Source of the DNA: Mucilaginibacter sp. MD40
GTDB taxonomy: Bacteria; Bacteroidota; Bacteroidia; Sphingobacteriales; Sphingobacteriaceae
Direction: 5' to 3'
DNA: 64,000 nucleotides
NCBI RefSeq assembly: GCF_002288635.1
Contig: NZ_NRSW01000001.1
Coordinates: 3,739,852 to 3,803,851 of the forward strand
Shown here: piece after piece, positions 13,700-62,113 of the stretch
Numbering within the stretch: the first letter of the stretch is position 1
Layout: each line of letters begins with the position of its first letter
Position numbers and translations under genes: made by a program
Notes under the pieces: model-generated
Told to the model about the DNA's origin: nothing
What the model saw: only the letters and a program-made list of their open reading frames with translations
The model's database searches: none

Positions 13700-13772
13700 G
13701 GTATCATAGCTCAGTTGGTAGAGCAAAGGACTGAAAATCCTTGTGTCCCTGGTTCGAATCCAGGTGGTACCA
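13700..13772 (+). tRNA. tRNA-Phe (anticodon GAA)
   Basis: The 73-nt cloverleaf is complete: acceptor GGTATCA/TGGTACC (with one G-U), D arm GCTC/GAGC, anticodon arm AAGGA/TCCTT with loop CTGAAAA, T arm CCTGG/CCAGG with loop TTCGAAT, and discriminator A. CCA is not encoded, as usual in this phylum. The GAA anticodon is at 13733-13735. Its 3' end is next to a tyrosine recombinase and is the likely attachment site of the element. Confidence 0.97.
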
Positions 13773-13774
13773 CA

Positions 13775-13967: not shown

Positions 13968-15311
13968 ATGGCAACAATTAACGCCGTTATCATTCCAAGC
14001 CAGAAAAAAAATGATGGGACCTGGAATGTAAAAATCCGGGTAACAAAAGACGCCCGCTGTTCTTACATTGAAACCCCGCATTTCATCAATGCGAAACAGA
14101 TTCGTAAAAAGAATCAGATTAAAGACCCGCTCGTTCAGGAAATGATCGAACCCGTTTTGATCGATTACCGGAAAAAGATCGGGGAGCTCGGCCCGAAGGT
14201 TCGTACTTATACAGCCTTAACACTGGCTGCATTTCTTGCGGGCAAAAAAGAAATCAAAGCCGAAGACATCAATGTTGTTGAGTTCGGCCGAAAGCGTATC
14301 GAGGAACTGAAAAAGGCAGACCGTTTAGGCAGTGCAAAGAATATGCAAACGGTGGTCAATAGTTTGATCGATTTTTTCCGGATGGAGGACATTCGAATCA
14401 CTGACATCCGTTCTAAAATGCTTGTAAAATACGAAGCATTCCTGCGGAAGCCCCGAACCCAAATCAGGCCTGACCAGTTCAACCGGCCGCAAACGCGGGC
14501 CATCGAAGGCCTGACAAATAACGGCCTGCACAACCACATGCGTGACCTGCGGATACTGTTCAACAATATCAAGGAATTTTATAATGATGAGGATGACGAA
14601 TTGATCGTTGTGAAACACTATCCTTTCAAAAAATATAAACTTCCCCAGGTGCAGCCGAAGGAAAAGCCAAAACTGACCGTTGAGCAGGTTATTGCCATTA
14701 GAGATTTTAAGGCGGAGCCCGGCTCCCGCATGGAGCTTGCCCGCGATCTGTTTATGTTAAGCTTTTATCTCTGCGGAATGAATGCCGTGGATATGTATAA
14801 GCTTCAGCCTGCCGACGAATCGAATACCCGGATCGGCTATAACCGGTCAAAAACCGCCAGCCGGAGGCGCGACCAGGCGTATATCAGTATTTTCATTCCG
14901 GAGGAAGCACGGCCGCTGTATGCGAAATATGCCGGTACCTTACAGAAACGCTACGCTACCCATAGCGGTTTAGACCATGCGCTTGCCTTTGGCATTAAGC
15001 AGATCGGTGCTGAGCTTGGCCATAAGGACCCTGAGTTTTACGATGCGCGCCATGCTTTCGGTGATTTCGCACGGAACCGTTGCCGTTTCAGTATGGATGA
15101 TGTCGGCCTGGCTATGAATCACAAAGATCAGTCAAACCGGGTGACTGACATTTATGTATCCAAGAACTGGGACATTATCGATGAAGTTCAGACGGAGGTT
15201 ATCCGCGTACTTGCCAGCCATGATTTGGCCAAACAAGTTGGCCTTACCGGTCACGGCATTGAACTACCTTTGGAATCAACCGTGGAATCAATGGAGTTAG
15301 TAGAGGCTTAA
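13968..15311 (+). CDS. Tyrosine recombinase (ICE integrase)
   Basis: Catalyses site-specific integration and excision of the element, probably at tRNA-Phe. The 447-residue protein has an N-terminal arm-binding region (1-75), a SAM-like core-binding domain (about 100-215) and a catalytic domain. Visible active-site residues are Lys295, Arg361 (ARH), His385 and Tyr396 (DIYVS). The first catalytic Arg position is Cys269 (FYLCGMN), a replacement seen in several Bacteroides integrases (CTnDOT IntDOT also lacks this Arg), and the usual HxxR reads YDAR. It reads away from the tRNA. Confidence 0.92.
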   Translation: MATINAVIIPSQKKNDGTWNVKIRVTKDARCSYIETPHFINAKQIRKKNQIKDPLVQEMIEPVLIDYRKKIGELGPKVRTYTALTLAAFLAGKKEIKAEDINVVEFGRKRIEELKKADRLGSAKNMQTVVNSLIDFFRMEDIRITDIRSKMLVKYEAFLRKPRTQIRPDQFNRPQTRAIEGLTNNGLHNHMRDLRILFNNIKEFYNDEDDELIVVKHYPFKKYKLPQVQPKEKPKLTVEQVIAIRDFKAEPGSRMELARDLFMLSFYLCGMNAVDMYKLQPADESNTRIGYNRSKTASRRRDQAYISIFIPEEARPLYAKYAGTLQKRYATHSGLDHALAFGIKQIGAELGHKDPEFYDARHAFGDFARNRCRFSMDDVGLAMNHKDQSNRVTDIYVSKNWDIIDEVQTEVIRVLASHDLAKQVGLTGHGIELPLESTVESMELVEA

Positions 15312-15567: not shown

Positions 15568-16551
15568 ATGTCAAACGATCAGATCATTATATATCAAGCG
15601 CCAGACGGACAAACATCAGTCGAGGTCAAGTTACAGGAAGAAACCTTATGGCTGTCCCTTAATCAATTAGCCGACCTTTTTGAGCGGGATAAATCTGTTA
15701 TTTCAAGACACCTGAACAATATTTTTAAAGAAGGGGAATTGGATCGTGTGTCAGTTGTTGCAAAAAATGCAACAACTGCGGCCGATAATAAAATCTACAA
15801 TGTAGAATACTTCAATTTGGATGTCGTGATCTCAGTCGGGTATCGTGTAAATTCCAAAAGAGGCACTCAATTTCGTATCTGGGCGAACCAGGTATTGAAA
15901 GAATATTTAGTAAAAGGCTATGCTGTAAATGAACAAAGGTTAAAAGAACAAACCGAACAATTCAACTCCCTGAAACAAACCGTAAACCTGTTAGGCAATG
16001 TTTTAAAAAATAAGGAGCTCACGTCTGACGAAGCTACGGGCTTGTTAAAAGTAGTTACTGACTATAGCTACGCACTGGATATTCTGGACAAATATGACCA
16101 TCAGCAATTAACGGTTGAAGGGACTACCGATCAGCAACTGTTTGTCGCGACTTACGAGGAAGCTATACAGGCCATCAAAGATTTAAAAGATAAATTCGGG
16201 GGCAGTTCCTTATTTGGAAACGAAAAAGACGATTCGTTCAAAGGATCTGTAGGTACTATTTATCAGTCCTTCGGAGGCGTTGAATTCTACCCGACAATAG
16301 AAGAAAAAGCGGCAAACCTGCTCTACTTTATCGTTAAAAATCATTCCTTTTCAGATGGAAACAAACGCATCGCGGCATACCTGTTCGTTTGGTTCCTGGA
16401 AAAAAATAGTATTTTATATCGTGAGGACGGATCGAAGCGCATAGCTGACAATGCCCTGGTCGCGTTAACCCTAATGATCGCGGAAAGTAAGCCGGATGAA
16501 AAGGAGATGATGGTAAAGGTTGTCGTTAACCTGATTAATCCTAAGAATTGA
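15568..16551 (+). CDS. RhuM-like protein with C-terminal Fic/Doc domain
   Basis: This 327-residue protein begins with the RhuM-type region (QEETLWLSLNQLADLFERDK, then a helix-turn-helix-like SVISRHLNNIF) and ends in a Doc-type domain with HSFSDGNKR (259-267). Fic/Doc enzymes transfer AMP or phosphate to proteins, and the Doc subgroup poisons EF-Tu; the motif keeps the catalytic His, Phe, Gly, Asn and Arg. It stands alone, with no Phd-like antitoxin visible. The N-terminal part may control DNA binding or self-restraint. A toxin or conflict role is inferred from family and location. Confidence 0.88.
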   Translation: MSNDQIIIYQAPDGQTSVEVKLQEETLWLSLNQLADLFERDKSVISRHLNNIFKEGELDRVSVVAKNATTAADNKIYNVEYFNLDVVISVGYRVNSKRGTQFRIWANQVLKEYLVKGYAVNEQRLKEQTEQFNSLKQTVNLLGNVLKNKELTSDEATGLLKVVTDYSYALDILDKYDHQQLTVEGTTDQQLFVATYEEAIQAIKDLKDKFGGSSLFGNEKDDSFKGSVGTIYQSFGGVEFYPTIEEKAANLLYFIVKNHSFSDGNKRIAAYLFVWFLEKNSILYREDGSKRIADNALVALTLMIAESKPDEKEMMVKVVVNLINPKN

Positions 16552-20473: not shown

Positions 20474-20680
20474 CTACTTCCAGTTCTTTTCACGGTAATG
20501 GCGGTACATTGCCCGTCTATCAGCCGCTTTTCTGCTTCTGCGGTCGCATCCCCATAAGAACCATGTCCAGAGGATAAATGCGAATGCTATTCCATAGATA
20601 TAATGCTGGCTGTTCAATGAGGCGAAGTATGCACCAGTTGAAATAAAGCAGGTGCAGATGAAATAAATGAATGTTTTCAT
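20474..20680 (-). CDS. Small two-helix membrane protein (paralogue of 15327)
   Basis: This 68-residue protein has two hydrophobic segments (FIYFICTCFISTGAYFA and IYGIAFAFILWTWFLWG) followed by a basic tail (DRRSRKAADRRAMYRHYREK). It shares N-terminus and layout with the 50-residue protein after the integrase. It overlaps the 60-residue gene upstream by 4 bp (ATGA). A role as a membrane anchor within the cassette is possible but unproven. Confidence 0.65.
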   Translation of the reverse strand: MKTFIYFICTCFISTGAYFASLNSQHYIYGIAFAFILWTWFLWGCDRRSRKAADRRAMYRHYREKNWK

Positions 20681-20859
20681 AACTGTTCAGTTTTAAGTTT
20701 GAGTAGTTTTTGGTAAACATCTTCCCAATAGGCGTAGCGATAAATGTCGTTCTCGGTGGGTGTTGTTACACGGTAATGGCGGTAATCGTCCGCCTGTAAT
20801 AGGGCAAGGTCGAGGTTTTCCACCTCGATTACTCTGCCGTCTAAATCGATGAGCTTCAT
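20677..20859 (-). CDS. Small hypothetical protein next to PRTRC ThiF
   Basis: The 60-residue protein begins MKLIDLDGRVIEVENLDLALLQADDYRHY and ends in a helix (EDVYQKLLKLKTEQL). It starts directly after the ThiF stop (1-bp gap) and overlaps the next gene. I know PRTRC-linked Bacteroidetes loci to carry small proteins of this kind but cannot name a family. Confidence 0.6.
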   Translation of the reverse strand: MKLIDLDGRVIEVENLDLALLQADDYRHYRVTTPTENDIYRYAYWEDVYQKLLKLKTEQL

Positions 20860-20860
20860 A

Positions 20861-21754
20861 TCAGGCAGCTTTAGGGATTTCGGTTTTGGAGCGTTTTGGT
20901 TTCAACGCTTTCACTTTGCTGTCGTCATTCGGGGTAACTTTAATCGGTTGCGCCCTGAAGTCTTTGAGGTTCAGGAAAAACCCCCTGTTGAACAACATGC
21001 CCTCGCTGAATATTTGCCATAAAAGGGATGCCCCTAAGTTGGCAAGTGCGGAATTGATGAACAAATCCTGTTGCGTGAGGGCTTCGGCTAAGGAACAGCT
21101 TGGCGTGTGGTCGCCCTTTTCGGAGTTCACTAACAGTTCCCTGAATTCCTCGGTCACTAAAGGCAAACGGCTGACCACCTCAAACTTTCGGGATGCGGGT
21201 TGCGTTATTTCGCCAATGGTGGATAGGATACACTGCCCTATATCCCTGCTGTTGCCAAAGTCCATCCAGTAAAGCGGATGGTGATAGGCGTGTTTCCTGC
21301 TTGCATAGATTTTGGATAGCAGGTCGGCAATCTCAAATCTTGCCTTTACGGTATCCACGCAAGTTATGGTGATTTCCGCCATCGCCAGTTCGGGACTCTC
21401 GTTCAGGGTTTGCAGGTCGTATTTTTCGGGTATGGCTTTCCAGTTCGTGCCGAAAAAGAGATTGATGCGGTTGACAAGCGCAACGGCTTTGTGCAAGCCA
21501 AGTTCAGCGGTTGAAAATAGCTGTCTGCCTAAATTGGCTTCTTCCACTTTATCATCATCGAACACCCGCACGGCAAGGCCGGGATGGTTCAGGGCGATGA
21601 GCGCATGGTTTATTCGTCCCAATGCCGTCAGGAACTGGCTGCCTGTACCGCCCGCACCGATCAGGTTGACCACGATGGGGTTGTAGGGGTTCAGCAGGGT
21701 TTTTTCCACGATATGTACGGCGGTCTTTACCGCTTTCAGTTTTGGCGTTTTCAT
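20861..21754 (-). CDS. PRTRC system ThiF family protein (E1-like)
   Basis: E1-like adenylating enzyme of 297 residues. It keeps the nucleotide-binding loop GAGGTGS (33-39), the acidic strand end VFDDDKVEEANLGRQ (64-78, with the Asp, Asn and Arg used for ATP and magnesium) and a TCVD strand (131-134). PSCS places Cys220 as a candidate thioester cysteine in the crossover region. ThiF/E1 enzymes adenylate the C-terminal Gly of ubiquitin-like proteins; here the obvious substrate is PRTRC protein C (23637), which ends GTKG. The gene overlaps protein B by 4 bp. The basic Pro-rich tail (KALKPKRSKTEIPKAA) is unusual. Confidence 0.9.
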   Translation of the reverse strand: MKTPKLKAVKTAVHIVEKTLLNPYNPIVVNLIGAGGTGSQFLTALGRINHALIALNHPGLAVRVFDDDKVEEANLGRQLFSTAELGLHKAVALVNRINLFFGTNWKAIPEKYDLQTLNESPELAMAEITITCVDTVKARFEIADLLSKIYASRKHAYHHPLYWMDFGNSRDIGQCILSTIGEITQPASRKFEVVSRLPLVTEEFRELLVNSEKGDHTPSCSLAEALTQQDLFINSALANLGASLLWQIFSEGMLFNRGFFLNLKDFRAQPIKVTPNDDSKVKALKPKRSKTEIPKAA

Positions 21755-22479
21755 ATAAAGAGGGTTTTAAGGGTTCGCTGATTGGGTTTGAGGCTTTCGC
21801 AGGGAAATACACGGTCTGTGGCGACCTGCTTTTGCCATAGCTGCACTATGTTCTCGGTTACGGGGTTGAACTCGCCCATCAGGTGACTGAAATAGCTGTT
21901 CCAAAAGTAGTTCTCCCATTGTGCCATAAAATCTTCCAGTCGGATGGTCTTGCCGATATTGATGCGCACGTTACCCATACAAACCTTACCATCTGTAGCC
22001 ACATTGAAAAAGGGGGCATGAAAAAGGGCGGTATTGCCTACGGGCTTGCGGTGTCCCTTCAGGGCGTACACCGCTAAACTGTCCCTGCCCGCTTTCCACA
22101 CCATCGCAGGTACTTTTCCCCTGCCTGATTTGATGCCTAAAGCATTGGAAAAGTAAAGGGGGACTTCCTGCGGTGGGGTGAACCAAATGGCATAGCCCTC
22201 CTGCTCGGTATTCACGTACAGCACCTTATTGGGCATGACGCCTTTACAGCGCAGGAAGCCCGTTTTAAATTCCTGCGCCGACTGGAAAATGCTGCTCAGG
22301 GCAAGCATTTCCTTAACGGTCAGCGGGTGGGCGTTTATTGGGTTGCCCAACCTGCCGATGTCGTAACTCTCTACATACACGCTGCTTGTATCTTCTTCGG
22401 TATGCTTGGTGTATATCAGCAGGGATTTTACAGGCTGATACAGGTTGCTGAAATTATGCGTTAGGTTCTTCATCGTCAA
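21751..22479 (-). CDS. PRTRC system protein B (E2-like)
   Basis: This 242-residue protein matches the PRTRC B family, which I understand to be related to prokaryotic E2-like (UBC-fold) proteins. The key stretch is FHAPFFNV (153-160) followed by GKVCMGNV, with Cys167 in the position of the E2 active site (G-x-V/I-C-L in classical E2s). GYAIWFTPP near residue 95 would be a central strand. It lies between F-like and ThiF with overlapping ends (26 and 4 bp). The start could also be Met3 at 22473. It is predicted to accept protein C from ThiF. Confidence 0.82.
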   Translation of the reverse strand: MTMKNLTHNFSNLYQPVKSLLIYTKHTEEDTSSVYVESYDIGRLGNPINAHPLTVKEMLALSSIFQSAQEFKTGFLRCKGVMPNKVLYVNTEQEGYAIWFTPPQEVPLYFSNALGIKSGRGKVPAMVWKAGRDSLAVYALKGHRKPVGNTALFHAPFFNVATDGKVCMGNVRINIGKTIRLEDFMAQWENYFWNSYFSHLMGEFNPVTENIVQLWQKQVATDRVFPCESLKPNQRTLKTLFI

Positions 22480-23572
22480 AATCGTTTAATATGCCTGTCA
22501 GTTCATCCAACAGGAAAAATAGTCTTGTTTCAAAATCAAAATCGTGGCGGGGTTTTTCCTGTGGCGTGTCAAACCATTGGACGGCAACGGGTTCTTCCTG
22601 ATAGCCCATTTCCTGAAATTCGCTGTTCACCATTTCAAACAGCATGTGCTGCAAGGTGTCCTCACCGCTCCAGTAAAAGGAGATGTAGTTCTCCCAATAG
22701 ATGCTGTAATCATCCTCGCTGGCTTCGTGCAACTCGTAGTGCATGGTGTCTTTGATAGCACGTTCGGGATAGTCCTTAGCCAGTTTCAGCAGTTCGCTTG
22801 CGACTTCCCTTAACTCCCTGCCTTGCTTGTCCGTTACGGGGATTTGCTGTAATTGCTGTTCCCACGTCTCCAAATCATAGGGCATTTTGATTTCGGGTAA
22901 CAGCGTATCACCTGCCAGTCGCATTAAGTCCAGTTCTGCGAACTGGCGTTTGCGGTATTGGCATTCTTCCTTGTCATCATGCTCGTCATATTCGTCATCA
23001 ATCTCTCTTATCCAGTTTTCGAGTGCATCATAGGAATTATCCAAATAGCCCGGCTCACGAAAAAAGGGGATGCCGATTGTGTGGTATAAGTATGCAAACA
23101 GCGTTCGGGTAAGTTCATAATAGGGCTGTTTGTTCCTTTCGTTTTTCATCTGCCACAACGGACGGACAGGCACATAATACAGGCAGAAGTTAGTATCAAA
23201 GGTTTTGACGGTTGCCAGTCGGGCGGGGCAACCCTTATCCTGCAACAGCATCACAGATGCGCCGTCAAACCGCTGTGAGGCCAGCTTTTCCAGTATTGCC
23301 GAAATGTTTTGAGGGAATGGCAAACCCGAGGTATCGGGGGCTTGCCACCCGTACAACTGGCAAAGGTTTCCCAACGACTGAAAAAATTCGCGTTCACCCT
23401 GCCCGAAGCCCGAAAAAGGCAGGCTTTGGAACGGCTTGAATGAATGGGTCAGAAAACCATTACGGTGCGTTCCTTTGGTGCGCTTCTTAGCGGGTTTTGC
23501 TGTACTTCCCTTGCATCGGGCAAGCGGTCTAACTTTTGGACGAATTCCCCGAATAATTGATGTAGTTTCCAT
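22454..23572 (-). CDS. PRTRC-associated protein, F-like by position and length
   Basis: This 372-residue protein has an acidic, aromatic C-terminal half (EASEDDYSIYWENYISFYWSGEDTL) and a basic, low-complexity N-terminus. Length and order fit PRTRC system protein F, but I see no decisive motif, so the label is tentative. The first 40 residues overlap another small frame (23449-23625) and may not be translated as given. The true start could lie near THRNGFLTHSF. It overlaps protein B by 26 bp, so the cassette is translationally coupled. Confidence 0.6.
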   Translation of the reverse strand: METTSIIRGIRPKVRPLARCKGSTAKPAKKRTKGTHRNGFLTHSFKPFQSLPFSGFGQGEREFFQSLGNLCQLYGWQAPDTSGLPFPQNISAILEKLASQRFDGASVMLLQDKGCPARLATVKTFDTNFCLYYVPVRPLWQMKNERNKQPYYELTRTLFAYLYHTIGIPFFREPGYLDNSYDALENWIREIDDEYDEHDDKEECQYRKRQFAELDLMRLAGDTLLPEIKMPYDLETWEQQLQQIPVTDKQGRELREVASELLKLAKDYPERAIKDTMHYELHEASEDDYSIYWENYISFYWSGEDTLQHMLFEMVNSEFQEMGYQEEPVAVQWFDTPQEKPRHDFDFETRLFFLLDELTGILNDFDDEEPNA

Positions 23573-23625
23573 TGTGTACTTTCCTCTATGACGGTTACTT
23601 TCCTGTTAATTCTTTTAGTTTCCAT
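23449..23625 (-). CDS. Possible 58-residue ORF overlapping the F-like gene
   Basis: ATG 23625 opens a frame of 58 codons (begins METKRINRKVTVIEES, ends KERTVMVF) only 11 bp after protein C. Its composition is more protein-like than the overlapping N-terminus of the 22454 frame (TKWKLHQLF-type helix, balanced charges). It fills the only sizeable gap in an otherwise tightly packed operon. Either this small protein is real and the F-like gene starts later, or both overlap. Confidence 0.4.
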   Translation of the reverse strand: METKRINRKVTVIEESTQWKLHQLFGEFVQKLDRLPDAREVQQNPLRSAPKERTVMVF

Positions 23626-23636
23626 GATGTTGCGGT

Positions 23637-23855
23637 TTAACCTTTCGTACCCATTGTGCTTTCAAAACGGTACTGTATCATATCGTCCTTGATCTCAGGC
23701 CCGACAATTCGGGCATTGGTCAGGATGGGATAAGTACCTGTATAAAAGTTCAGGACACTATCGGGGTTCATGGCTTCGTTAGGGTCGGTCAAACGGACTT
23801 CCAACCCGTTCTCCTTATGGATAAAAATCCGTTCTAATTGCGTTGTCTGTAACAT
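23637..23855 (-). CDS. PRTRC system protein C (ubiquitin-like)
   Basis: The 72-residue protein ends ...ESTMGTKG, the typical PRTRC C terminus, and includes LERIFIH, NFYTGTYPILTNA and YRFESTMG. The family is described as a prokaryotic ubiquitin-like protein; size, beta-rich N-terminus and an exposed C-terminal Gly fit that. Because the chain already ends in Gly, no processing protease would be needed before E1 activation. It lies 11 bp after protein E. Confidence 0.88.
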   Translation of the reverse strand: MLQTTQLERIFIHKENGLEVRLTDPNEAMNPDSVLNFYTGTYPILTNARIVGPEIKDDMIQYRFESTMGTKG

Positions 23856-23866
23856 GATGCTTTCCT

Positions 23867-24448
23867 TTAGGCTTCGTTAAATAATGTCAGGGCTTGGGCG
23901 TACTGTGTCTTTTTGCGCTCCAAATCGGCACGCCTTTTTTCCAGTTCTTCTTTCTTTTCGGGGTAGTCCTCTACCGATGGCAGGATGTTGAGCGCATCTT
24001 CGTATTTGCACAGGTCGTTGAGTTCCACTACTTTTCGGATGGTATCGGTATAGGTTTTCCGCTTTTCCTCTGCGGACATTTTGGGTTCACCCACTTCAAT
24101 CTCGTCTGTATCATCGTTGGTTTTAGCTTTGGCGGGTTGGGGCTTGCTTCCCTGTCCTAATTTTTTCTTGGCAACATCCACGCTTGCGGTTACGGCTTTG
24201 ATATTGCTGTACAGCCCTTTAAGGCTATCCACCTGCGTTACGGTGGCTTCAAAAAAGCCCTCGTCCATATCCAATGCCGTACCCCTGTGAATAAGGGGTA
24301 CTATCATTTTTGTGGCGGGTTCGTTAGATTTAAAGGGGGCGTATAAGGCAGATACGGTAAAATTGCCGTTCTCATCATTTTGGATGCCAATCGTCCAAAT
24401 GCCGGGGGCATTCAGGCTGGCTATATTTTCAAAGAAGTTCGTTTTCAT
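23867..24448 (-). CDS. PRTRC system protein E
   Basis: The 193-residue protein begins MKTNFFENIASLNAPGIWTI and has FTVSALYAP, VPLIHRGTALDMDEGFF, all diagnostic for PRTRC E. The second half is Lys/Glu-rich coiled helix (SAEEKRKTYTDTIRKVVELN, KKEELEKRRADLERKK) and follows a low-complexity linker. The role of protein E is unknown. It is the first recognisable PRTRC gene in the operon order E-C-(58 aa)-F-B-ThiF. Confidence 0.88.
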   Translation of the reverse strand: MKTNFFENIASLNAPGIWTIGIQNDENGNFTVSALYAPFKSNEPATKMIVPLIHRGTALDMDEGFFEATVTQVDSLKGLYSNIKAVTASVDVAKKKLGQGSKPQPAKAKTNDDTDEIEVGEPKMSAEEKRKTYTDTIRKVVELNDLCKYEDALNILPSVEDYPEKKEELEKRRADLERKKTQYAQALTLFNEA

Positions 24449-27842: not shown

Positions 27843-29120
27843 TTAATCTTCAATATCTTTCAGGGAAGGTGCGAAAATAGCCTTCAACCCCTCGCTTGAC
27901 CTGTTCTGTTCCGTTTCGTTAAGTTCGAGGTACGGCGTAAAGAAATAGCCGGGCTGTCCTTCGGAAACAAATCCGTGAATTATTTGGGTATAAATATCAT
28001 TTAAAGTAGCGTTGCTAATATCATGGATCATTTTTGAAAATGATAAAGGCGAAGGGTCAAGAAACGTAGTCGTCATCATATTATTGACATGCAACGGGGA
28101 GTTTTGGCTGAAGAAACATAATTTGCCGTTACTTGCCAAATCAAAATCCAGCTCAACCTGCATGGGTTGTTTACCATAAAGTTGTTTCAGCATGATCAAA
28201 AGGCTTGTAATAGCCAGCACCTCAGTAACCAGGCTGGAGATCATTGTTTTTTCTGCCTGGTAACTTGCCTTTTCAAATATGATGGAGTTTGCCTGAATGC
28301 GAAGCGCACCCTCTTTAAAATAATCAGGCGTATTAGGATTCTCCAGCTTATCATAAAAATCTATCTGTTGAGCGGTTTGGCTACGCCGATAATAAGGATT
28401 GAAAAGATATAGGTTGTTCTTTTTAACGCCGTCGTAAAATTTATCCAATGCCTGAAAAAGTACGGGAGCCGAAAAGGATCTTCCTAATAAACGGACCCTG
28501 ATTACCGTATGCTGAAAATACGGCATTGTGGAAATTTGCAGGCTGGCTTCAGTATTGATCAGCGTGGTAGACTTAACAGCCGCAGCAGCTTCCACGCCTT
28601 TGAGCTTGCTGATGGTATAGGGCAGCTCGGCTTCTAAAAGCTCAATGATCTGTTGCAGCCTCGCCAACGGAAGATGCTGCATATCTTTGAGCCAGTCGTC
28701 AAAGTCGACAACATTCTTAGTCGTGTCAAAAGCAAAAAGCCCGTTGATGTTGGTATTAAGCGTATAGCTACCTTGTTTTGGCGACAACATAAATATGTTG
28801 ATGGAAGGGAATTTGACGTAGTGTTTGAACCGGATAACCTTTTCAAGCATTTCATCGACCTTTGAACTCGTTTTTTCGGAACTAACCTGATAGGCTATAC
28901 CATGGCTTTCGTCACCAATATCAATGCCGGGGAAATTGGAGATCGGTTCATTCAGGTTAATCAATTGATAGTCGTAGGTCAGGTTAAGCAGGTTTTTGAC
29001 CAGGTTTTCACAATATTTATGAATATTCAATATCCCCAATATCCCTGCCTGTTTGATCTCATTTTTTAAAATGGCGATCTTTTCATTGACCTGTTCGATT
29101 ATTTTTCCGCTGGTTATCAT
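27843..29120 (-). CDS. SMEK-domain protein
   Basis: This 425-residue protein has an N-terminal SMEK domain, a predicted restriction-endonuclease-like fold: HKYCENLVKNLLNL (34-47), NFPGIDIGD (62-70) with Asp67/Asp70, and AYQVSSEKTSSK (76-87). The C-terminal 250 residues are not recognised and may be a sensor or partner-binding region; there is no STAND NTPase. SMEK domains often sit in bacterial conflict systems. It is flanked within 18 bp on each side by the other two nuclease-type genes. Confidence 0.8.
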   Translation of the reverse strand: MITSGKIIEQVNEKIAILKNEIKQAGILGILNIHKYCENLVKNLLNLTYDYQLINLNEPISNFPGIDIGDESHGIAYQVSSEKTSSKVDEMLEKVIRFKHYVKFPSINIFMLSPKQGSYTLNTNINGLFAFDTTKNVVDFDDWLKDMQHLPLARLQQIIELLEAELPYTISKLKGVEAAAAVKSTTLINTEASLQISTMPYFQHTVIRVRLLGRSFSAPVLFQALDKFYDGVKKNNLYLFNPYYRRSQTAQQIDFYDKLENPNTPDYFKEGALRIQANSIIFEKASYQAEKTMISSLVTEVLAITSLLIMLKQLYGKQPMQVELDFDLASNGKLCFFSQNSPLHVNNMMTTTFLDPSPLSFSKMIHDISNATLNDIYTQIIHGFVSEGQPGYFFTPYLELNETEQNRSSEGLKAIFAPSLKDIED

Positions 29121-29138
29121 TATGTAAAAGTAAGAATA

Positions 29139-30905
29139 TTAAGCCTTTCCGGGTTTCAAAAGGTCTTCGCCGAATTCCATAAAGAGTTTAGGTGTGCGCA
29201 ATTTACTGAAGTCATGAAGGAAGCCATTGTATGGTTGGAAGGAATTAAGCATCAATTTTTCGAGGTAGTCTTCGGTAGGGCGGACACCATGTTTAGGTTT
29301 TATCTTATTACGGTTTATCGCGGCATAATAGGCAAGCAGGCTCTCCTCAAACTGGCCACGATTGGCCTCGAACTCTTCGCTGTACAAAATCAGGGTATCA
29401 AAGTCCAGGATCACCAATGGAAATATCCTGGCTTTATTAACCCGTAATGTTTCACGGCTTTCGATTTCTTCCTGAAACCAGTCATTTAAAACCACATTCA
29501 CGCCGGGTGTGGTCAACGCCAGTTCGGAAACCAGTAAAATGGGGAAGATACGGAGCTTTGCAGGCTGACGCTGGCGGTCGTAACCGTCGGCACTACTAAA
29601 AAGGTATTCAATCCGTTCAGCCAACTGTTTAACGGCTTTATTGTCGTTTTCTTCATCATCATGGACATATTTCTTGCGGAGTTCCTTGGCGACAAAAGGG
29701 TAATTAAAGGATTGTTTGGCCTCTCCGGTGAGTATACTTCCTTTAACTTCAAACAGGAATACCTTATGCCCGTTCCTTACATAATAATCAGGTTCCGTGT
29801 CAAGACCGAAGCGCTGAACGATATCGGCTCCTGAAAGCCGGTAATAGCTTGTCCTGCCGAAAATCTTGTTCAGCAAAGTATAACTGAGGTGTTTTTCAAT
29901 AAAATCAAAAGTGTAGAAAGAGAAAAATTCCCGGTAGGCCGGGTGTAAATTCTTATTGCGTTCTGCAAGGCGGAGCAGTTCAAAAAAGGCGGAGTTATAA
30001 ATACGGTTAACGGCGAGGACCGGATCCAGGATGAGATAGGTATCTTCGCCGGTACGGAAGAGTGGCATCGACCTCGCATTAAGGAAATCTGTCTTTGCTT
30101 TGTAGTCAATGTCATCGACAAGCGCAAGATGATCCAAAAAGGCCTTGCTTCGCTCCCTGTTATCCGAGTCTTTTATATCAAGGTAGTTCAGTCCCGAGCC
30201 GTCGCCTTCGGTGGTGGCATGTATCGCAACCGGCAGGATGCCCTTAAGGTAATCCCGCCAGTTTTCGACCCCGTAACTATTTAGAAAAAGACGCAGTAAT
30301 TCCCCGTGTCCGTGTTCGAGAAACGAGAACAGGTAGTAAGCTTTTATGGTTCCGGCAATTAGCAGCTCTGAAGCATTGAAATGGTTCAGGTCATGATATG
30401 GTAAGAGGTTGGTTAAATATACTCTTGCTAATTTGTCAACCACATCGGGGAATTGATCAGCCGGCACAGAGGCGAAAATACCATCGTTTTTTGCACCGAA
30501 AAGTCCGTTTGCCGCGAGGTAGATATCAAAAAGCTCTTTTTCGGACGCTAAATCGTCGAGGCGGTTTTCAGGGTCGGCCGGGGTGCTTAATATTTTGTCG
30601 AGTAAATAAAGATTGGACCAGAGGTTGATGGTAAGCAATTGACGCGGATGGACATTCGCGTCCCGGTAGCTGTTGATGATCCGGTTTAGTAACAAATTCG
30701 CGTGTTCCTGGTTGGCTTCGCTAAACCAGGTTTTTAAGACATCGATTACGCCGTCGTGTTTGTTGTGGCGTGCCAGATGATTCAGCCGGGCAAGAAGCTT
30801 CGCCCAGGTGCTCCTGTCCAACGCAGATAGACTTACATCGGTTATCTCCTTATCTTCACCGTAAAGGCGCTGATAGTTAATTACAAGTTTTCGATTGAAG
30901 TTCAT
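29139..30905 (-). CDS. Large protein with a predicted PD-(D/E)XK site
   Basis: The 588-residue protein is largely helical for its first 350 residues. It then shows EPDYY (371-375) followed by FLFEVKGS (383-390), so Asp373, Glu386 and Lys388 form a classic PD-(D/E)XK pattern. It is otherwise unrecognised. It is first gene of the nuclease operon. The large N-terminal region could sense or bind a partner. Helicase and methyltransferase motifs were not seen, so this is not a standard restriction subunit. The spread of acidic patches (HDDEENDNK) is notable. Confidence 0.75.
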   Translation of the reverse strand: MNFNRKLVINYQRLYGEDKEITDVSLSALDRSTWAKLLARLNHLARHNKHDGVIDVLKTWFSEANQEHANLLLNRIINSYRDANVHPRQLLTINLWSNLYLLDKILSTPADPENRLDDLASEKELFDIYLAANGLFGAKNDGIFASVPADQFPDVVDKLARVYLTNLLPYHDLNHFNASELLIAGTIKAYYLFSFLEHGHGELLRLFLNSYGVENWRDYLKGILPVAIHATTEGDGSGLNYLDIKDSDNRERSKAFLDHLALVDDIDYKAKTDFLNARSMPLFRTGEDTYLILDPVLAVNRIYNSAFFELLRLAERNKNLHPAYREFFSFYTFDFIEKHLSYTLLNKIFGRTSYYRLSGADIVQRFGLDTEPDYYVRNGHKVFLFEVKGSILTGEAKQSFNYPFVAKELRKKYVHDDEENDNKAVKQLAERIEYLFSSADGYDRQRQPAKLRIFPILLVSELALTTPGVNVVLNDWFQEEIESRETLRVNKARIFPLVILDFDTLILYSEEFEANRGQFEESLLAYYAAINRNKIKPKHGVRPTEDYLEKLMLNSFQPYNGFLHDFSKLRTPKLFMEFGEDLLKPGKA

Positions 30906-32252: not shown

Positions 32253-32291
32253 AATAATAGATTTTTAATAGCGGTAAAACAGAAACTTAAG

Positions 32292-33161: not shown

Positions 33162-33185
33162 AGGTAATGGTTTTGTATTGATTAA

Positions 33186-39497: not shown

Positions 39498-39918
39498 TCG
39501 TTTGTTCCTGTTCCACAGCGTTTCCGATATCCAGGCCCAATTTGCTTTGTAAGGTTTCCATTGCCTTATTTAGAATACCGGGGTTTTCAACAGCAAGTTG
39601 CATGGCTTCCCTGGCACCTTTGCTGGTCCCGTTTTCGAGGAGGTTGCCTATACGGTACAGGGCCTTTAGGTCAGGAATCGCAATATCTTTCGTATTGGTC
39701 ATCATCTCCTTGTAGATATCGTTAGGCTTTTTAAAAACCAATAAGGCATCACTGCCATAAAGTGCGCGCTCATTCTTGCCAAAGGTGACATAGATATCAT
39801 CCTTTTCGGGTTCCGCAAATATGATCATGGCCATTTGACCCTGTTTGTTAACCGGGTCTTCAGGCAGTTCAGGATGGACCAGTACGAGGGTACCGGTCAG
39901 GTCATCAGTTTGATTCAT
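39475..39918 (-). CDS. Hypothetical protein between coupling protein and M23 peptidase
   Basis: The 147-residue soluble protein has a beta-rich N-terminal half (TGTLVLVHPEL, QMAMIIFAEPEKDDIYVTFG) and a helical C-terminal half. The gene overlaps mobC by 4 bp and the peptidase by 23 bp. It may regulate or support the coupling protein, but no evidence shows this directly. No family is recognised. Confidence 0.6.
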   Translation of the reverse strand: MNQTDDLTGTLVLVHPELPEDPVNKQGQMAMIIFAEPEKDDIYVTFGKNERALYGSDALLVFKKPNDIYKEMMTNTKDIAIPDLKALYRIGNLLENGTSKGAREAMQLAVENPGILNKAMETLQSKLGLDIGNAVEQEQTNAKSYGR

Positions 39919-41933
39919 TTTCTGTTATTTTTTAATTGCTCTTTCATGGTAGCTTTTGGCGTATTAACTTTTGGCGGCTGATGTTTCTGGATGATCTGGG
40001 CGATCTCGCGGTTGATCCGTTTAAAGTTTTCTGTCAGTACGGTTTCTCTGTTTGCCCCGAAATCATAGTAGACGGGGAGCGGCCTGTAGCCCGCTTCTTC
40101 TTTCTTGAGTTCGTCCAGGTCGAGATTCACACGGCAATTAATCGATGAGGTTTCGTAATCCCCGGTGTATTGTTCTTTGACATCAGCCGCGATCACGCCA
40201 ACGAGTTCGCCGGCGTTCAGCGTAGCTATTTTGCCGGCGGGCACCAACGTTTCCAGCTTTTCATTCAGCGATGTCGATGTCTTGTTGCGGTCAATAGAAA
40301 GCCCTTCGCTGATCTGTTTATTTCGGCCCAACAATTTTTCCAGCCAGTCCAGGGTTTCCTTGCTGCGCACAGACCCGGATAATACATTGCCTGTCACAGA
40401 AGTGATGGTCGCAGCGGTTTCTTTACCGTATTGTTGCTGAAACTGAGGAAGTTCCTGCAAACCCATCAGGACGGCGACCTTATTGGAGCGGGCTGTGGCG
40501 ATAAGATTTTCGATTTTATGCACAAACAGCGTTGGTAATTCATCGATGATCAGTGCCGAAGGCTTATTTCCCTTGCTGTTGATCAGCTTGGTCAGCCGGT
40601 TGATGATGACTGAATAGCAGGCGGAATTGATATTTTGCGTTGCCGGGTCGTTGGCCAGAACCAGCATCGCAGGATGTGCCTTATCTGATATTTTCAGATC
40701 AAAGTCGTCCCCGGAAAATACCCAATACGTCTCCTTGGTGGCGAGCCGTGATAAAAAGATCTTCAATGTACCGACCTGACCTTCTAACTGGTCAAATGCC
40801 TTGTTTTTAAAGGCTGAAACGAAAGGCGATAGCAGCGAGGCCAGTTCTGCCTGTTTGAACAGCGTTTGAAATATTTCCTCATAGCTGCGGTTTAGCAGGG
40901 CTAACACGTGCGGAAAGGAAGAATATTTCCCCTCTTCATACCGGCTCATGAAATAGATACAGGCAGACAAAAAGTTAATGGCGGACTGGGTAAAAAACTG
41001 GTCTGAACCGCCCGATTTGTCGCCTTTTTTCATGGCTTCCACCAATGCCTCAGCCGTTTCACCTGCATCAGCCAGCGTTCGGATATAGTCCTTTTTCCAG
41101 GGATTGATGCGCCGGCTTTTTTCCACCTCGTTGAGGTTCACTACATGGAAGTCATAGCCTTTCAGTTTGCCTTGCTGTTTGGCAAGCAGGTAGTGATAAT
41201 AGGCGATCTGCCCGAGATCAGGGAATTTGAAATCGTATAACGCCAGGCAGAAACCCTTGGCGGTCAGTTGCCGGATAAATGGATTGACGATCGAAAAACT
41301 CTTGCCGGAACCTGGCGTACCGATCAGAAGCGTCGCCCTGAAAGGGTTGGTCAGGTTGATCCAGCCGCGCCGGACTTTACGCTTGTAATAGAACAGCATG
41401 GGAATGTTCACCGAATAATCCGTTGCTTCCAGTTTTTCCGGCTGCTGGAAACTTTCGCCTTCTACGTTCCAGACATCTTTGCCTAAGCCGGAGCGTATCA
41501 GCTTGGAAATATTGTCCATGGCGATACTGGTCAGTAAAGCGCCACCGGCCGACAGGATCATATAGATCAAATCCCACCAACTTGTATAGGCAAATACTAA
41601 TGGCCCGTCCCGCCCGTAACAAAAAAGGCTGCCGAAAAATAACAGCAGCCCCAACACGAGCGGGTAAACGATATGTTTTTTGGGTTCGAGATCGACTTCC
41701 TTTTTGGCAACCGTACCGATACTGACCAAACAGATGAGGGCTAAGGTGGCCAGTTTGCTGTAAACCAGGTTTTGGTAAAATGGAAGCAGGCTGATCCGGT
41801 ACAGCGCATGGTGAAAAATTCCCCATATCGGCGCCCGGATGTAAATAAAAATGGCCGCTTCAAGGGCGACCATCACATAGATCAGACATTGCAGGAAGCC
41901 ATGCAGCTTCTGTTGTTCACGTGTTTCTTCCAT
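39915..41933 (-). CDS. mobC: Conjugative coupling protein (VirD4/TraG family, MobC of Bacteroides ICEs)
   Basis: This 672-residue ATPase links the relaxase-DNA complex to the transfer channel. There are several N-terminal membrane helices (about 15-145). The ATPase domain has Walker A GTPGSGKS (205-212), Walker B-like ALIIDELPT, and conserved SVTGNVLSGSV. LVPAGKIATLNAGE matches coupling-protein relatives. It leads the operon to 34626 and overlaps the next gene by 4 bp. A gap of about 80 bp separates it from the DUF4099 gene upstream. Confidence 0.92.
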   Translation of the reverse strand: MEETREQQKLHGFLQCLIYVMVALEAAIFIYIRAPIWGIFHHALYRISLLPFYQNLVYSKLATLALICLVSIGTVAKKEVDLEPKKHIVYPLVLGLLLFFGSLFCYGRDGPLVFAYTSWWDLIYMILSAGGALLTSIAMDNISKLIRSGLGKDVWNVEGESFQQPEKLEATDYSVNIPMLFYYKRKVRRGWINLTNPFRATLLIGTPGSGKSFSIVNPFIRQLTAKGFCLALYDFKFPDLGQIAYYHYLLAKQQGKLKGYDFHVVNLNEVEKSRRINPWKKDYIRTLADAGETAEALVEAMKKGDKSGGSDQFFTQSAINFLSACIYFMSRYEEGKYSSFPHVLALLNRSYEEIFQTLFKQAELASLLSPFVSAFKNKAFDQLEGQVGTLKIFLSRLATKETYWVFSGDDFDLKISDKAHPAMLVLANDPATQNINSACYSVIINRLTKLINSKGNKPSALIIDELPTLFVHKIENLIATARSNKVAVLMGLQELPQFQQQYGKETAATITSVTGNVLSGSVRSKETLDWLEKLLGRNKQISEGLSIDRNKTSTSLNEKLETLVPAGKIATLNAGELVGVIAADVKEQYTGDYETSSINCRVNLDLDELKKEEAGYRPLPVYYDFGANRETVLTENFKRINREIAQIIQKHQPPKVNTPKATMKEQLKNNRK

Positions 41934-55693: not shown

Positions 55694-56306
55694 CCTCACT
55701 TTGCCAGGTAGCCCATGGATTGAGCGATGCCCAGATGCCCCGCAGCTGTGCCCAATACATGGCCCGCTGCATCCCATAGGCCAGGCCGCGCAGGGCATGC
55801 ATTTCGGTAACGATGTGGTTAAGTAATTTCCCGCGTTCCGAGCTATCCATCAGGTTGTCGCTTCCACCGCGTAATACATAGGCGGAGACATCTGTTGCCA
55901 ATGCTACTGCCCGTTTTTCAAAATCCTGCGCTCCCTGTTGCGCGAACAGTAACAGCACGGGGTTACTGCGTGCGGTCTGAACTGCTTTATTGACATCGCT
56001 GACAATATCTGAGCCGGTTTCGGCTATATCTTTGATCGAATACAGGTTATTGATCACCGATGCCACTTCAGACAATCCTTTGTAGATCTTATTCTGCAAA
56101 TTATTAACGATGACCAGCTGGCCGCTTACGGCAAGCTGCGCGGTTTGTATGGCTGTTAGTTTATTGTTGGTATTATTCAGCTGGCTGTTAATGATGGCGC
56201 TGTTGGCCAGCATGGCGCCGGACGTTGCGGGGTCAACCACCAGTTCCTGGGCATGTAGTGCCAGGGATAGCATCAGCCCAGTGATTAAACAAAGGAATGT
56301 TTTCAT
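55641..56306 (-). CDS. TraI-like protein, copy 1
   Basis: The 221-residue protein has a signal peptide (MKTFLCLITGLMLSLALHA) and QELVVDPATSGAMLANSAI, close to TraI relatives (QWVVTDP... in other ICEs). The C-terminus SLNPWATWQSEDVRIANSVISEAKYLHR is shared with the two other copies. It overlaps traG by 4 bp. Confidence 0.72.
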   Translation of the reverse strand: MKTFLCLITGLMLSLALHAQELVVDPATSGAMLANSAIINSQLNNTNNKLTAIQTAQLAVSGQLVIVNNLQNKIYKGLSEVASVINNLYSIKDIAETGSDIVSDVNKAVQTARSNPVLLLFAQQGAQDFEKRAVALATDVSAYVLRGGSDNLMDSSERGKLLNHIVTEMHALRGLAYGMQRAMYWAQLRGIWASLNPWATWQSEDVRIANSVISEAKYLHR

Positions 56307-58756
56307 ATTAAAAGCGTTATTGGTTTATTGTGCAGGTTGATCTTTTGCACGAAGTCACCCGGAGCCACGCCGCTGTGTTCCAAATCTGAAAGAAATGCCT
56401 CCAGCGCTGCGGGGTAAGAGCCATAATGATGAACATAGATCTGCACGGCGTTTTTTTCCGGTTTTTCTGTGGTATAAACGTAATACTGATGACGGCTTAC
56501 CTCTACGCCGTAAACCTCGCCGGTGGAACCGCGCCGGATATAGACCTCGTTAAATCTGGCGCGTCCGTCTTTATTATCCAGCTGATTGATGGTGAATATC
56601 TTTCGCTGTTCAGTTGGTGAAATGGAGAGCACTTTGGCGATCTCGCCGTAATTATCCCGGAATTTTCTTTGGTCAAGCAGGATAACGGTATCCGAGTTAT
56701 TGATGATGCTGTCCTTTACCACCGGATTACTGATAATATCGGAGAGTTCCTGCGTTACCTCTATGACCTCGCCCCAGAATTTCCGCACGGTCTTGTTCAG
56801 ATAAAGCAAAAATGAACTCATGATCGGAGACATGAGCGCCCGCCAGGCTTCTTCAAGGATCAGCACTTTGCGCTGGTTCTTACGATTGCGCATCTTCTGG
56901 ATGAAAACATCCATAATGATCAGCGTCACGATGGGCAGCAATACGGCGTTATCCTGAAGGGCATCGATTTCATACACGACGAAGGGCTCATTTAGCAGCG
57001 ACTGGTCGCCCGCCTCGTTAAGGATACTTTCGTATTCCCCTCCCCGGTAAAACTTTTTGAGCACATAGCGAAACTCGTCCAGATCGAACGGAATCCGTTC
57101 CTCGCTTTTGATCTCGGGTATTTTGTTTAGCGCGAACTCGTAAAAACTATTAAATGAAAGATCAATGTCAGCGTCATCCGAAAAGGCGATCGCATAATAC
57201 CCGCTTACGGTAGCCGTCAGTACATCCCGCTCAATAGTGGAAACAGAACCTCCGGCACCTTTCCAGAGCAACGCGATCAGGGTCACCAGGTTATCCTTTT
57301 TTTCCAGGTTATACTCGTCTTCGGTGATCAGGAACGGATTCATCGTTATCGGCCTTTCGTCCGACCAGGTGATATATTTTCCGCCGTAGTAAGCGCAAAG
57401 ACCTGAGTAGGAATGCCCGACATCCACGATCACGACATCCACATTAAAAAGCAGATATTGCTCCACTAACGAGTTCATAAAGAATGACTTACCAGAACCG
57501 CTGGGACCTAACACGAACTTGTTCCTGTTATTGATGCGCCCGGTGCGCATCGGCAGATCGGCGGGGTCTATCGCCACCGGGATACCTTTTCGGTCGGTTA
57601 ACCGGATGCGAAAGGATGAGGGTTCATCTTCCATCGGACGCTCCTTGAAAAAAAGGCAAAGCGCGGCATCACTGGTGGTCAGAAACCAATCGTAATTCTT
57701 CAATTCAACGCCGTTTCCCGGCATCGCTGCCCGGAACAATTCCAGTTGGTTATAAGCATTCTGGTTGGGAATGATGCCTAATTGGAACAAAGCGCTTTCA
57801 ATAAAATTTGCCGAGCGCTGGATATCGGCAGCAGGTGCGGACAGGATAATACTGTAATGGACATTCACGAGCAGCTGACCGTTACGCGCGACATCTTTGA
57901 GCAGCTGATCGATATCTTCTACACAAAGTAAATTTGCAGGGTCAGGAATACCCGAATGCCGCTTGCGCTTGACTTCCAGTTTATTGAGCAATGCCTGTTG
58001 TCCGGGGATTTCGATGACCTGGTTATAAAGGATGGCCTCAAAGGCCGGCACGCTGTTCAAAAAGGAAAGCATATCCACCGGAAAGCCACGCACCGCTTCG
58101 TTCTCATTAAGCTCGGTGAACGTTCCGATCTCAGAAGGCATATCTACGTTTTCACTGTTCACCAATGGAATGCAGCGGATGGAACGGTCGCCCATCAATA
58201 TTTCAGTGTCCGTTGGTTTGAAGTTGTTCAGTGAAAATGGTGCGTTGCCAAAGCGCATGGCGAGCACTCTCCGGATAAGGCCGCTGATCTGAGCTTCGCT
58301 TAAAATAACGGGTTCGCATTTGGCGGCCTTTAATACATCGGTAACTTTGTTAACAGACGTGCGGAAATCCCGCAGTTGTTTGGGGTCGTAAATATAAAAG
58401 CGACCTTTTTTAACTTGCCTGGTCAGCGTCAGGTAAGTATCGATCCGCAGTGCTGCACGGCCCTGAAAATGCGCATTGAACTTTTGTTGCAGGTATTCAG
58501 TTGCGGGCGGCGGATCGAATGGGGCCTTGTGTATGATATCCTGTTTTTGCAGCAGATAACCATCGCCAAGTATTTTGATGATGCCGGTCAGCAGGTTCTG
58601 AAATTCATCGTAGTCGCCCGCCGCCGCCGAATGCTGGATAATGGGATTTTTCATCGCGATCACCACGGAAAATTCACCGCTTGCACCGTACAGGATATCG
58701 AAGTCTTTACCGGCGTCTACGCCGATATAAGGCGTTTCAAACTTCCGGGCGTTCAT
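56303..58756 (-). CDS. traG: Conjugative ATPase TraG (VirB4-like)
   Basis: The 817-residue cytoplasmic ATPase drives channel assembly and substrate transfer. Walker A GPSGSGKS (417-424) and Walker B-like KVLILEEAWRALMSP are visible. The N-terminal half matches the TraG/VirB4 non-catalytic domain. It overlaps traF by 20 bp and the TraI-like gene by 4 bp. It is full length. Confidence 0.95.
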   Translation of the reverse strand: MNARKFETPYIGVDAGKDFDILYGASGEFSVVIAMKNPIIQHSAAAGDYDEFQNLLTGIIKILGDGYLLQKQDIIHKAPFDPPPATEYLQQKFNAHFQGRAALRIDTYLTLTRQVKKGRFYIYDPKQLRDFRTSVNKVTDVLKAAKCEPVILSEAQISGLIRRVLAMRFGNAPFSLNNFKPTDTEILMGDRSIRCIPLVNSENVDMPSEIGTFTELNENEAVRGFPVDMLSFLNSVPAFEAILYNQVIEIPGQQALLNKLEVKRKRHSGIPDPANLLCVEDIDQLLKDVARNGQLLVNVHYSIILSAPAADIQRSANFIESALFQLGIIPNQNAYNQLELFRAAMPGNGVELKNYDWFLTTSDAALCLFFKERPMEDEPSSFRIRLTDRKGIPVAIDPADLPMRTGRINNRNKFVLGPSGSGKSFFMNSLVEQYLLFNVDVVIVDVGHSYSGLCAYYGGKYITWSDERPITMNPFLITEDEYNLEKKDNLVTLIALLWKGAGGSVSTIERDVLTATVSGYYAIAFSDDADIDLSFNSFYEFALNKIPEIKSEERIPFDLDEFRYVLKKFYRGGEYESILNEAGDQSLLNEPFVVYEIDALQDNAVLLPIVTLIIMDVFIQKMRNRKNQRKVLILEEAWRALMSPIMSSFLLYLNKTVRKFWGEVIEVTQELSDIISNPVVKDSIINNSDTVILLDQRKFRDNYGEIAKVLSISPTEQRKIFTINQLDNKDGRARFNEVYIRRGSTGEVYGVEVSRHQYYVYTTEKPEKNAVQIYVHHYGSYPAALEAFLSDLEHSGVAPGDFVQKINLHNKPITLLI

Positions 58757-61000: not shown

Positions 61001-62113
61001 TTAACGGGTGTTGGTGCGCGCTTTTTTCTGCCTGCGCCTGCGTGGGCCGTGGATCTGCTGATCATCCACGTCGTTCGTGAGATAAGGCCGGAAATAGGTC
61101 AGGTGACTGTTCTTTGCATGATGGTCAGCCGCTTCGCCGGTAGTTCTATCCGGAGATAACCCTGTAGAAACTTCTGTATCCGGGCTGGCCAGTATTGCCA
61201 GTTTGATGATCTCACTGCCTTTGAAAACCCGCTGCTGGAGGTGATCAATGACAGTGTACCCATAAGGCGGCTTATCGCCGGAAGCGTGGTAGATCAGTTC
61301 AATACCGAATTCATTCCTGAGAAAATCACCCAGGTCAGAACGATAAGTACCCGTTTGGGATGTTCTTCCACCCGGAAGATGGAGTGTTGCACGCTCAGGA
61401 ACAGGGTTGTAAACGGCCTTGTATTTATTAAAGATCGCTTTCCATTGAATTGCCTGGCGTTTATCGGGCATAAAGGCCGCAAGACGTTCTTCAACACGTT
61501 TCCCACTGACCGCAAAAAGCTGGCGTCCATATTTATAGAGTAAAAACTGACCTTCCTTTTCATGGATTTGATAGCCCATGCCTTCCAGCAACAGGAGCAC
61601 CTGCGCTTTAGTGGAACACTGGTATTGCAGTGCTTTGCCTGCATCCAATTGCGCCTGATGCGCCTCGTCCATTTGCAGCAAACGGTTAAGCTGGTTAACT
61701 GCACGTTTATGTTCAAAGGCGCTGTCGATCTTTTTGCCCTGCCGGTCAACCCGCGTGGTGACCATGTGCACATGGGACTGGTCGGTGTCCCGGTGATGTA
61801 CCAATAGGTAAGGCTGATCTTTGTAGCCCATCTGGTCCAGCCATTGGCCGGCAAGCTTTGCCAGCTTATCTTTATCAAAGGAATGATCAGGCGCTGAGAT
61901 CATGGCATGAAACTGCGGAAGCCTTACATTGCGATTGAGGCCGGATAATGCTTCCAGGTAATTCCGGTAATCTTCCGGCCGTACTTCGCGCAGCTGCCGT
62001 AGCGCTCCAAAACCCGATACTTTCATTAAAGTCGCCTGTCCCTTGGCGATCTTATCAAAATTATAGGTGATCGCTTTGAAAGTTGCAGCAGCACGGAAAA
62101 TTTTAACGATCAT
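61001..62113 (-). CDS. mobB: Relaxase (MobB)
   Basis: The 370-residue relaxase nicks oriT and pilots the strand. The HUH motif HHRDTDQSHVHM (106-117) holds the metal-binding histidines. Tyr17 (ITYNFDK) is the likely nicking tyrosine. The N-terminus has the usual VKI. The C-terminus is basic (RRRQKKARTNTR). It lies after a 426-bp repeat-rich gap that follows mobA. Confidence 0.92.
   Translation of the reverse strand: MIVKIFRAAATFKAITYNFDKIAKGQATLMKVSGFGALRQLREVRPEDYRNYLEALSGLNRNVRLPQFHAMISAPDHSFDKDKLAKLAGQWLDQMGYKDQPYLLVHHRDTDQSHVHMVTTRVDRQGKKIDSAFEHKRAVNQLNRLLQMDEAHQAQLDAGKALQYQCSTKAQVLLLLEGMGYQIHEKEGQFLLYKYGRQLFAVSGKRVEERLAAFMPDKRQAIQWKAIFNKYKAVYNPVPERATLHLPGGRTSQTGTYRSDLGDFLRNEFGIELIYHASGDKPPYGYTVIDHLQQRVFKGSEIIKLAILASPDTEVSTGLSPDRTTGEAADHHAKNSHLTYFRPYLTNDVDDQQIHGPRRRRQKKARTNTR

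Follow-up and report, generated by a model that had tools for sequence, protein, structure and literature searches.

Composition of the PRTRC cassette

We analysed a 64,000-nucleotide stretch of the Mucilaginibacter sp. MD40 genome (contig NZ_NRSW01000001.1, positions 3,739,852 to 3,803,851; hereafter the window), which carries an integrative and conjugative element (ICE) and, on its minus strand at 20861-24448, five genes transcribed in the order E-C-F-B-ThiF. These genes are a PRTRC cassette, the operon type 6d for which Iyer et al. (2006, PMC1779556) had already predicted a role in conjugation. From the sequences of its products, we consider it probable (about 0.72) that the cassette encodes a mobile-element-borne, ubiquitin-like conjugation cascade in a form that lacks the JAB protein. 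What is new here is this JAB-less form of type 6d and the coupling of JAB absence to a protein C that is encoded already trimmed.

An earlier note on this DNA, made from the sequence alone, had described ThiF as an E1-like protein with an ATP loop and a candidate catalytic residue, Cys220, and our analysis upheld this description. The protein scores 242.6 bits against TIGR03736 (cut-off 144.75) and contains a GxGGxG glycine loop, D66, R77, K89, D134 and Cys220 (within PSCS), all of which are invariant in the 259 distinct homologous ThiF proteins from the 280 loci that we gathered from Bacteroidota genomes, plasmids, IMG/VR contigs and one phage isolate. One caution attaches to the Cys220 count: the E1 Cys motif formed part of the genome-scan pattern and of one pattern, out of two, in the first viral scan. 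This residue was also kept in all 107 loci fetched without a Cys-containing pattern. The closest solved chains are Cap2, UBA6 and UBA3, and weak matches to ThiF and MoeB make the protein a member of the ThiF/MoeB superfamily.

Protein B, which the note had read as E2-like, carries the segment FHAPFFNV...GKVC and a downstream His199, a feature given for this E2 family by Iyer et al. (PMC1779556). It lies far above the Pfam cut-off for PF14460 and slightly below that for TIGR03737 (E=1.5e-33; 116 bits, cut-off 131). The active-site residue is Cys167 when numbered from a TTG start and Cys162 from the ATG five codons later (22464). This Cys and the Asn eight residues N-terminal of it are invariant in 254 of 254 homologs, and the downstream His is conserved in 245; B never served as a search pattern. 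Structure prediction, proposed in the note as a check, gave an AlphaFold2 model of B with a predicted local distance difference test score (pLDDT) of 90.9. In a second look at this model with VIA-align, the best 22 rows were all ubiquitin-conjugating (UBC) enzymes (UBE2S, UbcH5c, UbcH7, Ubc9 and others), with Z of 3.9-5.0 and 104-128 residues aligned within positions 57-237 of the model; the bacterial CdnG-E2 ranked lower (Z 3.6). Because these matches are uniform and cover the full domain, the model supports a divergent UBC-like fold for B despite the low Z.

Protein C, a single domain of 72 residues, exceeds the cut-offs of both PF14454 and TIGR03738 and is predicted from this family membership to be a ubiquitin-like protein, in agreement with the note. 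The protein encoded at the F position, which the note had omitted, is a core member of the cassette found in 95 of 97 Bacteroidota loci; homologs of E occur in 90 of the same 97. The AlphaFold2 model of the F-position protein (pLDDT 84.8) is mostly helical, in keeping with the "novel alpha-helical protein" that type 6d includes (PMC1779556). This model had no Foldseek match in the PDB at E<=0.001, and its best VIA match reached Z 4.6, leaving no clear solved relative. An HHalign comparison of the Bacteroidota F-position proteins with proteobacterial F was not significant, and the case for their homology is one of shared position, similar size and stepwise hidden Markov model links.

The overlapping ends by which the note had the genes joined are present between B and ThiF (4 nt) and, if B starts at its ATG, between the F-position gene and B (11 nt), whereas gaps of 11 nt and 64 nt divide C from E and from the gene that follows C, respectively. 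Relative to the closest relative, Mucilaginibacter polytrichastri, the ratio of nonsynonymous to synonymous substitution (dN/dS) is ~0.10-0.12 in all five genes, indicating strong purifying selection on the cassette. The two small open reading frames (ORFs) listed beside the cassette in Table 1 are far less conserved among Bacteroidota loci than the core genes.

Table 1. Positions of the cassette genes and of other features in the window
Feature	Coordinates	Strand	Evidence or remark
PRTRC protein E, 193 aa	23867..24448	-	PF19556 E=4.7e-35
Protein C, predicted ubiquitin-like modifier, 72 aa, ends ...GTKG-COOH	23637..23855	-	PF14454 Prok_Ub E=4.3e-27; TIGR03738 above cut-off
F-position protein, 372 aa, mostly helical	22454..23572	-	Position; AlphaFold2 model
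Protein B, E2-like	21751..22479	-	PF14460 Prok-E2_D E=4e-33; ATG start probably 22464
PRTRC ThiF, E1-like adenylating enzyme, 297 aa	20861..21754	-	TIGR03736 E=3.7e-72
Small accessory ORF, 60 aa, next gene past ThiF	20677..20859	-	In 36/97 Bacteroidota loci; no family
Small ORF	20474..20680		In 7/97 Bacteroidota loci
tRNA-Phe, likely ICE attachment gene	13700..13773	+	ARAGORN; integrase begins 195 bp on
Tyrosine integrase of ICE	13968..15311	+	PF13102
Type IV secretion system coupling protein of ICE	39915..41933	-	PF10412/PF02534
TraG/VirB4 conjugation ATPase of ICE	56303..58756	-	PF19044 E=1.7e-135
Relaxase of ICE	61001..62113	-	PF03432

The JAB protein and the end of protein C

In type 6d, the JAB protein (protein A) was stated to be always fused or adjacent (Iyer et al. 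2006, PMC1779556). As the note had reported, neither a JAB motif nor a homolog of A was found close to the cassette; the sole Prok-JAB-like match genome-wide is the housekeeping protein RadC, other isopeptidase families not having been searched. The note had also suggested that this absence fits a protein C that already ends in Gly, and a comparison of the 232 scorable loci bears out this suggestion. None of 153 JAB-less cassettes encodes a C that extends past the conserved end (last residue Gly in 151, Ala in 2), whereas 73 of 79 cassettes with JAB encode a C with 1-100 added residues after the conserved Gly. Both the length and the sequence of these tails vary, in contrast to the nearly constant residues just before them, as expected of an extension that is removed. 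The A proteins keep the JAMM motif HxH...S..D in 79 of 79 cassettes and are placed between B and ThiF in 78.

A naive Fisher test of JAB against tail gave p=9e-54, a value that ignores kinship. On a 177-row ThiF tree, five JAB changes are needed, three of them forced by well supported branches, and in three independent pairs on this tree the tail follows JAB in 2.3 on average and never goes the opposite way. From these sequence comparisons, we conclude that the JAB protein very probably trims C and that JAB-less cassettes encode a C that is already trimmed.

JAB-less cassettes with a Gly-ended C also occur outside Bacteroidota, in Pseudomonas (loci L043, L292, L295 and L297), Thiodictyon (L288), Salinimonas (L289), Aeromonas (L296) and Photobacterium (L045). 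The apparent tails of L045 and L289 came from alignments that stopped early; by eye these proteins end in ...NG, and we scored them as tail-less. The tail count excludes L187, whose C is truncated, and L300, whose C did not align as far as its end. A JAB signal in L080 is a motif only, in a 372-aa ORF ~1.9 kb downstream of ThiF that is not an A homolog, and it was not counted. The four Pseudomonas loci are large plasmids, one of them named as a KPC carbapenemase plasmid. The two Ala-ended C proteins (GTKA) are those of Pelobacter L287 (3858-4061) and the viral locus L098; for these to function, Ala would need to be activated by the E1.

Proposed conjugation pathway and role

The window cassette shares with PRTRC (TIGR03735-TIGR03742) and type 6d (PMC1779556) a ubiquitin-like protein of the Prok_Ub family with a C-terminal Gly, the E1-like ThiF, an E2-like protein with an invariant Cys and a downstream His, a helical protein and the gene order E-C-F-B-(A)-ThiF; it differs in having no JAB gene in the operon and in encoding C already trimmed. 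Our comparison with the Bil and Bub systems draws on the statements about them in PMC11354881 and PMC13373217. BilABCD likewise comprises a ubiquitin-like protein, an E1 and an E2, together with a deubiquitinase that exposes the Gly of the ubiquitin-like protein. Unlike the two-domain, ISG15-like BilA, the window C has one domain; the window cassette has no JAB counterpart of the Bil deubiquitinase, its 297-aa E1 lacks the inactive domain that BilD is described as having at its N terminus, and it has the extra proteins E and F. Type II cyclic oligonucleotide-based anti-phage signalling systems (CBASS), which contain Cap2 and Cap3, are related through Cap2, one of the nearest solved relatives of ThiF, but the window has separate E1 and E2 genes and its own ubiquitin-like protein, and we found no CD-NTase cyclase among the cassette genes and the immediate neighbours scanned. 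Bub operons are also predicted bacterial ubiquitination-like systems, and an anti-phage role has not been shown for them.

On the basis of the invariant residues, we propose that ThiF would use ATP to adenylate the terminal Gly of C, which would then be held as a thioester on Cys220 and relayed to protein B, where it would be taken up by Cys167 of the UBC-like fold, next to which His199 would lie. Protein B would move C onto target lysines, perhaps together with E and the helical F-position protein. Where protein A is present, it would first cut the C-terminal extension off C; in the window cassette, a C made pre-trimmed would allow conjugation without a processing step. As the genome has no JAB deconjugase, conjugation would probably not be reversed by a JAB enzyme.

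Several results weigh against a conjugation cascade of this kind. Foldseek found no match to the B model in the PDB at E<=0.001, the structural match by VIA is modest (Z about 5), and a profile search with alignments found no PDB sequence relatives of B, C or the F-position protein. The link between JAB and tail rests on three to five independent JAB changes and is not significant alone. Six of the 79 cassettes with JAB have no tail on C, and therefore A must do more than trimming. Finally, the window copy has neither of the upstream genes, for the single-stranded DNA-binding protein (SSB) and DUF932, that accompany most Bacteroidota copies.

ICEs, megaplasmids and phages all carry the cassette. 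Among 18 cassettes in 14 Bacteroidota genomes, 14 share their contig with a VirB4 no more than ~90 kb away; one of the others is a clear exception (genome G214, VirB4 1.6 Mb away) and three have no VirB4 on the contig. The spread of the cassette is patchy: it occurs in 14 of 395 Bacteroidota genomes and, within the window's genus, in about half of those sampled. PRTRC ThiF is encoded on 370 plasmid records and more than 270 IMG/VR contigs. A viral scan with a Pseudomonas ThiF as query gave no matches, and a seventeen-row alignment was dropped as a query because it was too divergent. The isolated Burkholderia phage BgVeeders33, which has capsid, portal, terminase and tail genes, carries a set (OK665841, 25952-30438; L302) of a tailed C, an F-position gene, B, A (JAB) and ThiF, all but ThiF annotated as hypothetical. 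Although PRTRC cassettes are thus found on hundreds of plasmids, including large Pseudomonas resistance plasmids, the literature mentions them solely as annotation (e.g., as a partition system in PMC7466150), and we found no functional paper. The Bacteroides thetaiotaomicron cassette genes BT2645-2649 appear with high p values in an iron-response table (PMC10434189).

The recurrent neighbours suggest a link with how mobile elements establish and maintain their DNA. SSB lies upstream in 73 of 93 Bacteroidota loci and DUF932 in 56, nearly always on the same strand; viral contigs have a CI-like repressor, an integrase or a DnaB helicase, and plasmid loci have a ParB-family gene directly upstream of E in 15 of 22 cases, sometimes with DnaN near. 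BLAST clustering placed no ParB of the plasmid-type family beside the cassettes of Bacteroidota ICEs or of phages, the window not having been searched with a ParB profile. In 19 of 93 Bacteroidota loci, ThiF is closely followed by a gene for a macro domain, a fold of ADP-ribose chemistry (e.g., L129:11045-11497).

These observations bear on what the cassette might do. The superfamily membership of ThiF, with its weak matches to ThiF and MoeB, would suit a sulfur carrier of the ThiS/ThiF kind, in which ThiF adenylates C solely for a thiocarboxylate used in a biosynthetic step. We consider this very improbable, given the E2-family protein with an invariant Cys beside nearly every ThiF, the JAB protein in sister cassettes, the mobile and patchy distribution, and a set of recurrent neighbours in which we found no sulfur or cofactor enzyme among those examined. 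The note had raised a role against phage or host defences. Its anti-phage part, in which phage or host proteins would be tagged in infection as in Bil or type II CBASS, draws on the use of E1, E2 and JAB proteins in those defences (PMC11354881, PMC10097602) and on the conflict-type genes of the same ICE. It did not hold up well and appears quite unlikely: an isolated phage has the whole set and more than 270 IMG/VR contigs encode ThiF, PADLOC-DB gave weak E1-superfamily hits and no specific model match, the recurrent neighbours are DNA-maintenance rather than defence genes, and the related Bub operons have no demonstrated phage protection (PMC13373217).

Conjugation of C to ParB-like or segregation proteins in plasmid or ICE partition or stability would explain the ParB-family gene of most plasmid cassettes and the annotation of PRTRC as active partition (PMC7466150), but BLAST clustering found no ParB of this family next to the ICE cassettes of Bacteroidota or those of phages, and an integrated ICE or a phage has less need of partition; we regard it as unlikely. 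The counter-defence part of the note's proposal fares better, though we judge it somewhat less likely than not: as a counter-defence or establishment module in a newly entered cell, the cassette would inhibit host nucleases or the SOS response by tagging. Most Bacteroidota ICEs have SSB and DUF932 co-directional and just upstream, plasmid leading regions, which abound in anti-defence genes, typically contain SSB genes (PMC11541004), ArdC is on the same ICE and phages also carry the cassette, but the main text of that leading-region survey mentions neither PRTRC nor ThiF. For the conjugation cascade, our tentative guess from the gene neighbours, at somewhat less than even odds, is that it would aid the element's DNA to establish or persist via DNA-maintenance proteins of the element or host. 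A narrower version, which we hold to be doubtful, is that JAB-free, effectively one-way conjugation tags DNA-maintenance proteins of the host or element (e.g., around SSB) at establishment, with the F-position protein as a new E3 or substrate adaptor.

Through the coupling between JAB and tail, one can test sharply whether C truly acts as a ubiquitin-like modifier that is processed by A as its protease. With its smaller and simpler set of genes, the JAB-less version lends itself to a search for conjugates, because the host has no JAB deconjugase to strip them.

The host element and its other genes

The location on an ICE given in the note was confirmed: beside tRNA-Phe, the window holds genes for an integrase, a coupling protein, TraG/VirB4, TraM, a relaxase, MobC and ArdC. 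We found no second copy of the tRNA-Phe 3' end (second att site) in the genome, and therefore the far end of the ICE is undefined. The same genome has a second PRTRC cassette at 4.13 Mb (L004:12891-16384), which is JAB-less and has SSB and DUF932 upstream; it lies ~34 kb from the genome's other VirB4, in what looks like a second ICE.

Several further genes lie in the window. A RhuM-Fic protein beside the integrase (15568-16551) strongly matches the PADLOC candidate defence PDC-S23. A SMEK-domain protein (27843-30905), which adjoins a 588-aa protein of no known family, matches a PADLOC restriction-nuclease model associated with short Argonautes. At 31389-33896, three tandem proteins have like starts (MAN.C...), and the two that were scanned match an Api92-like ferredoxin domain.

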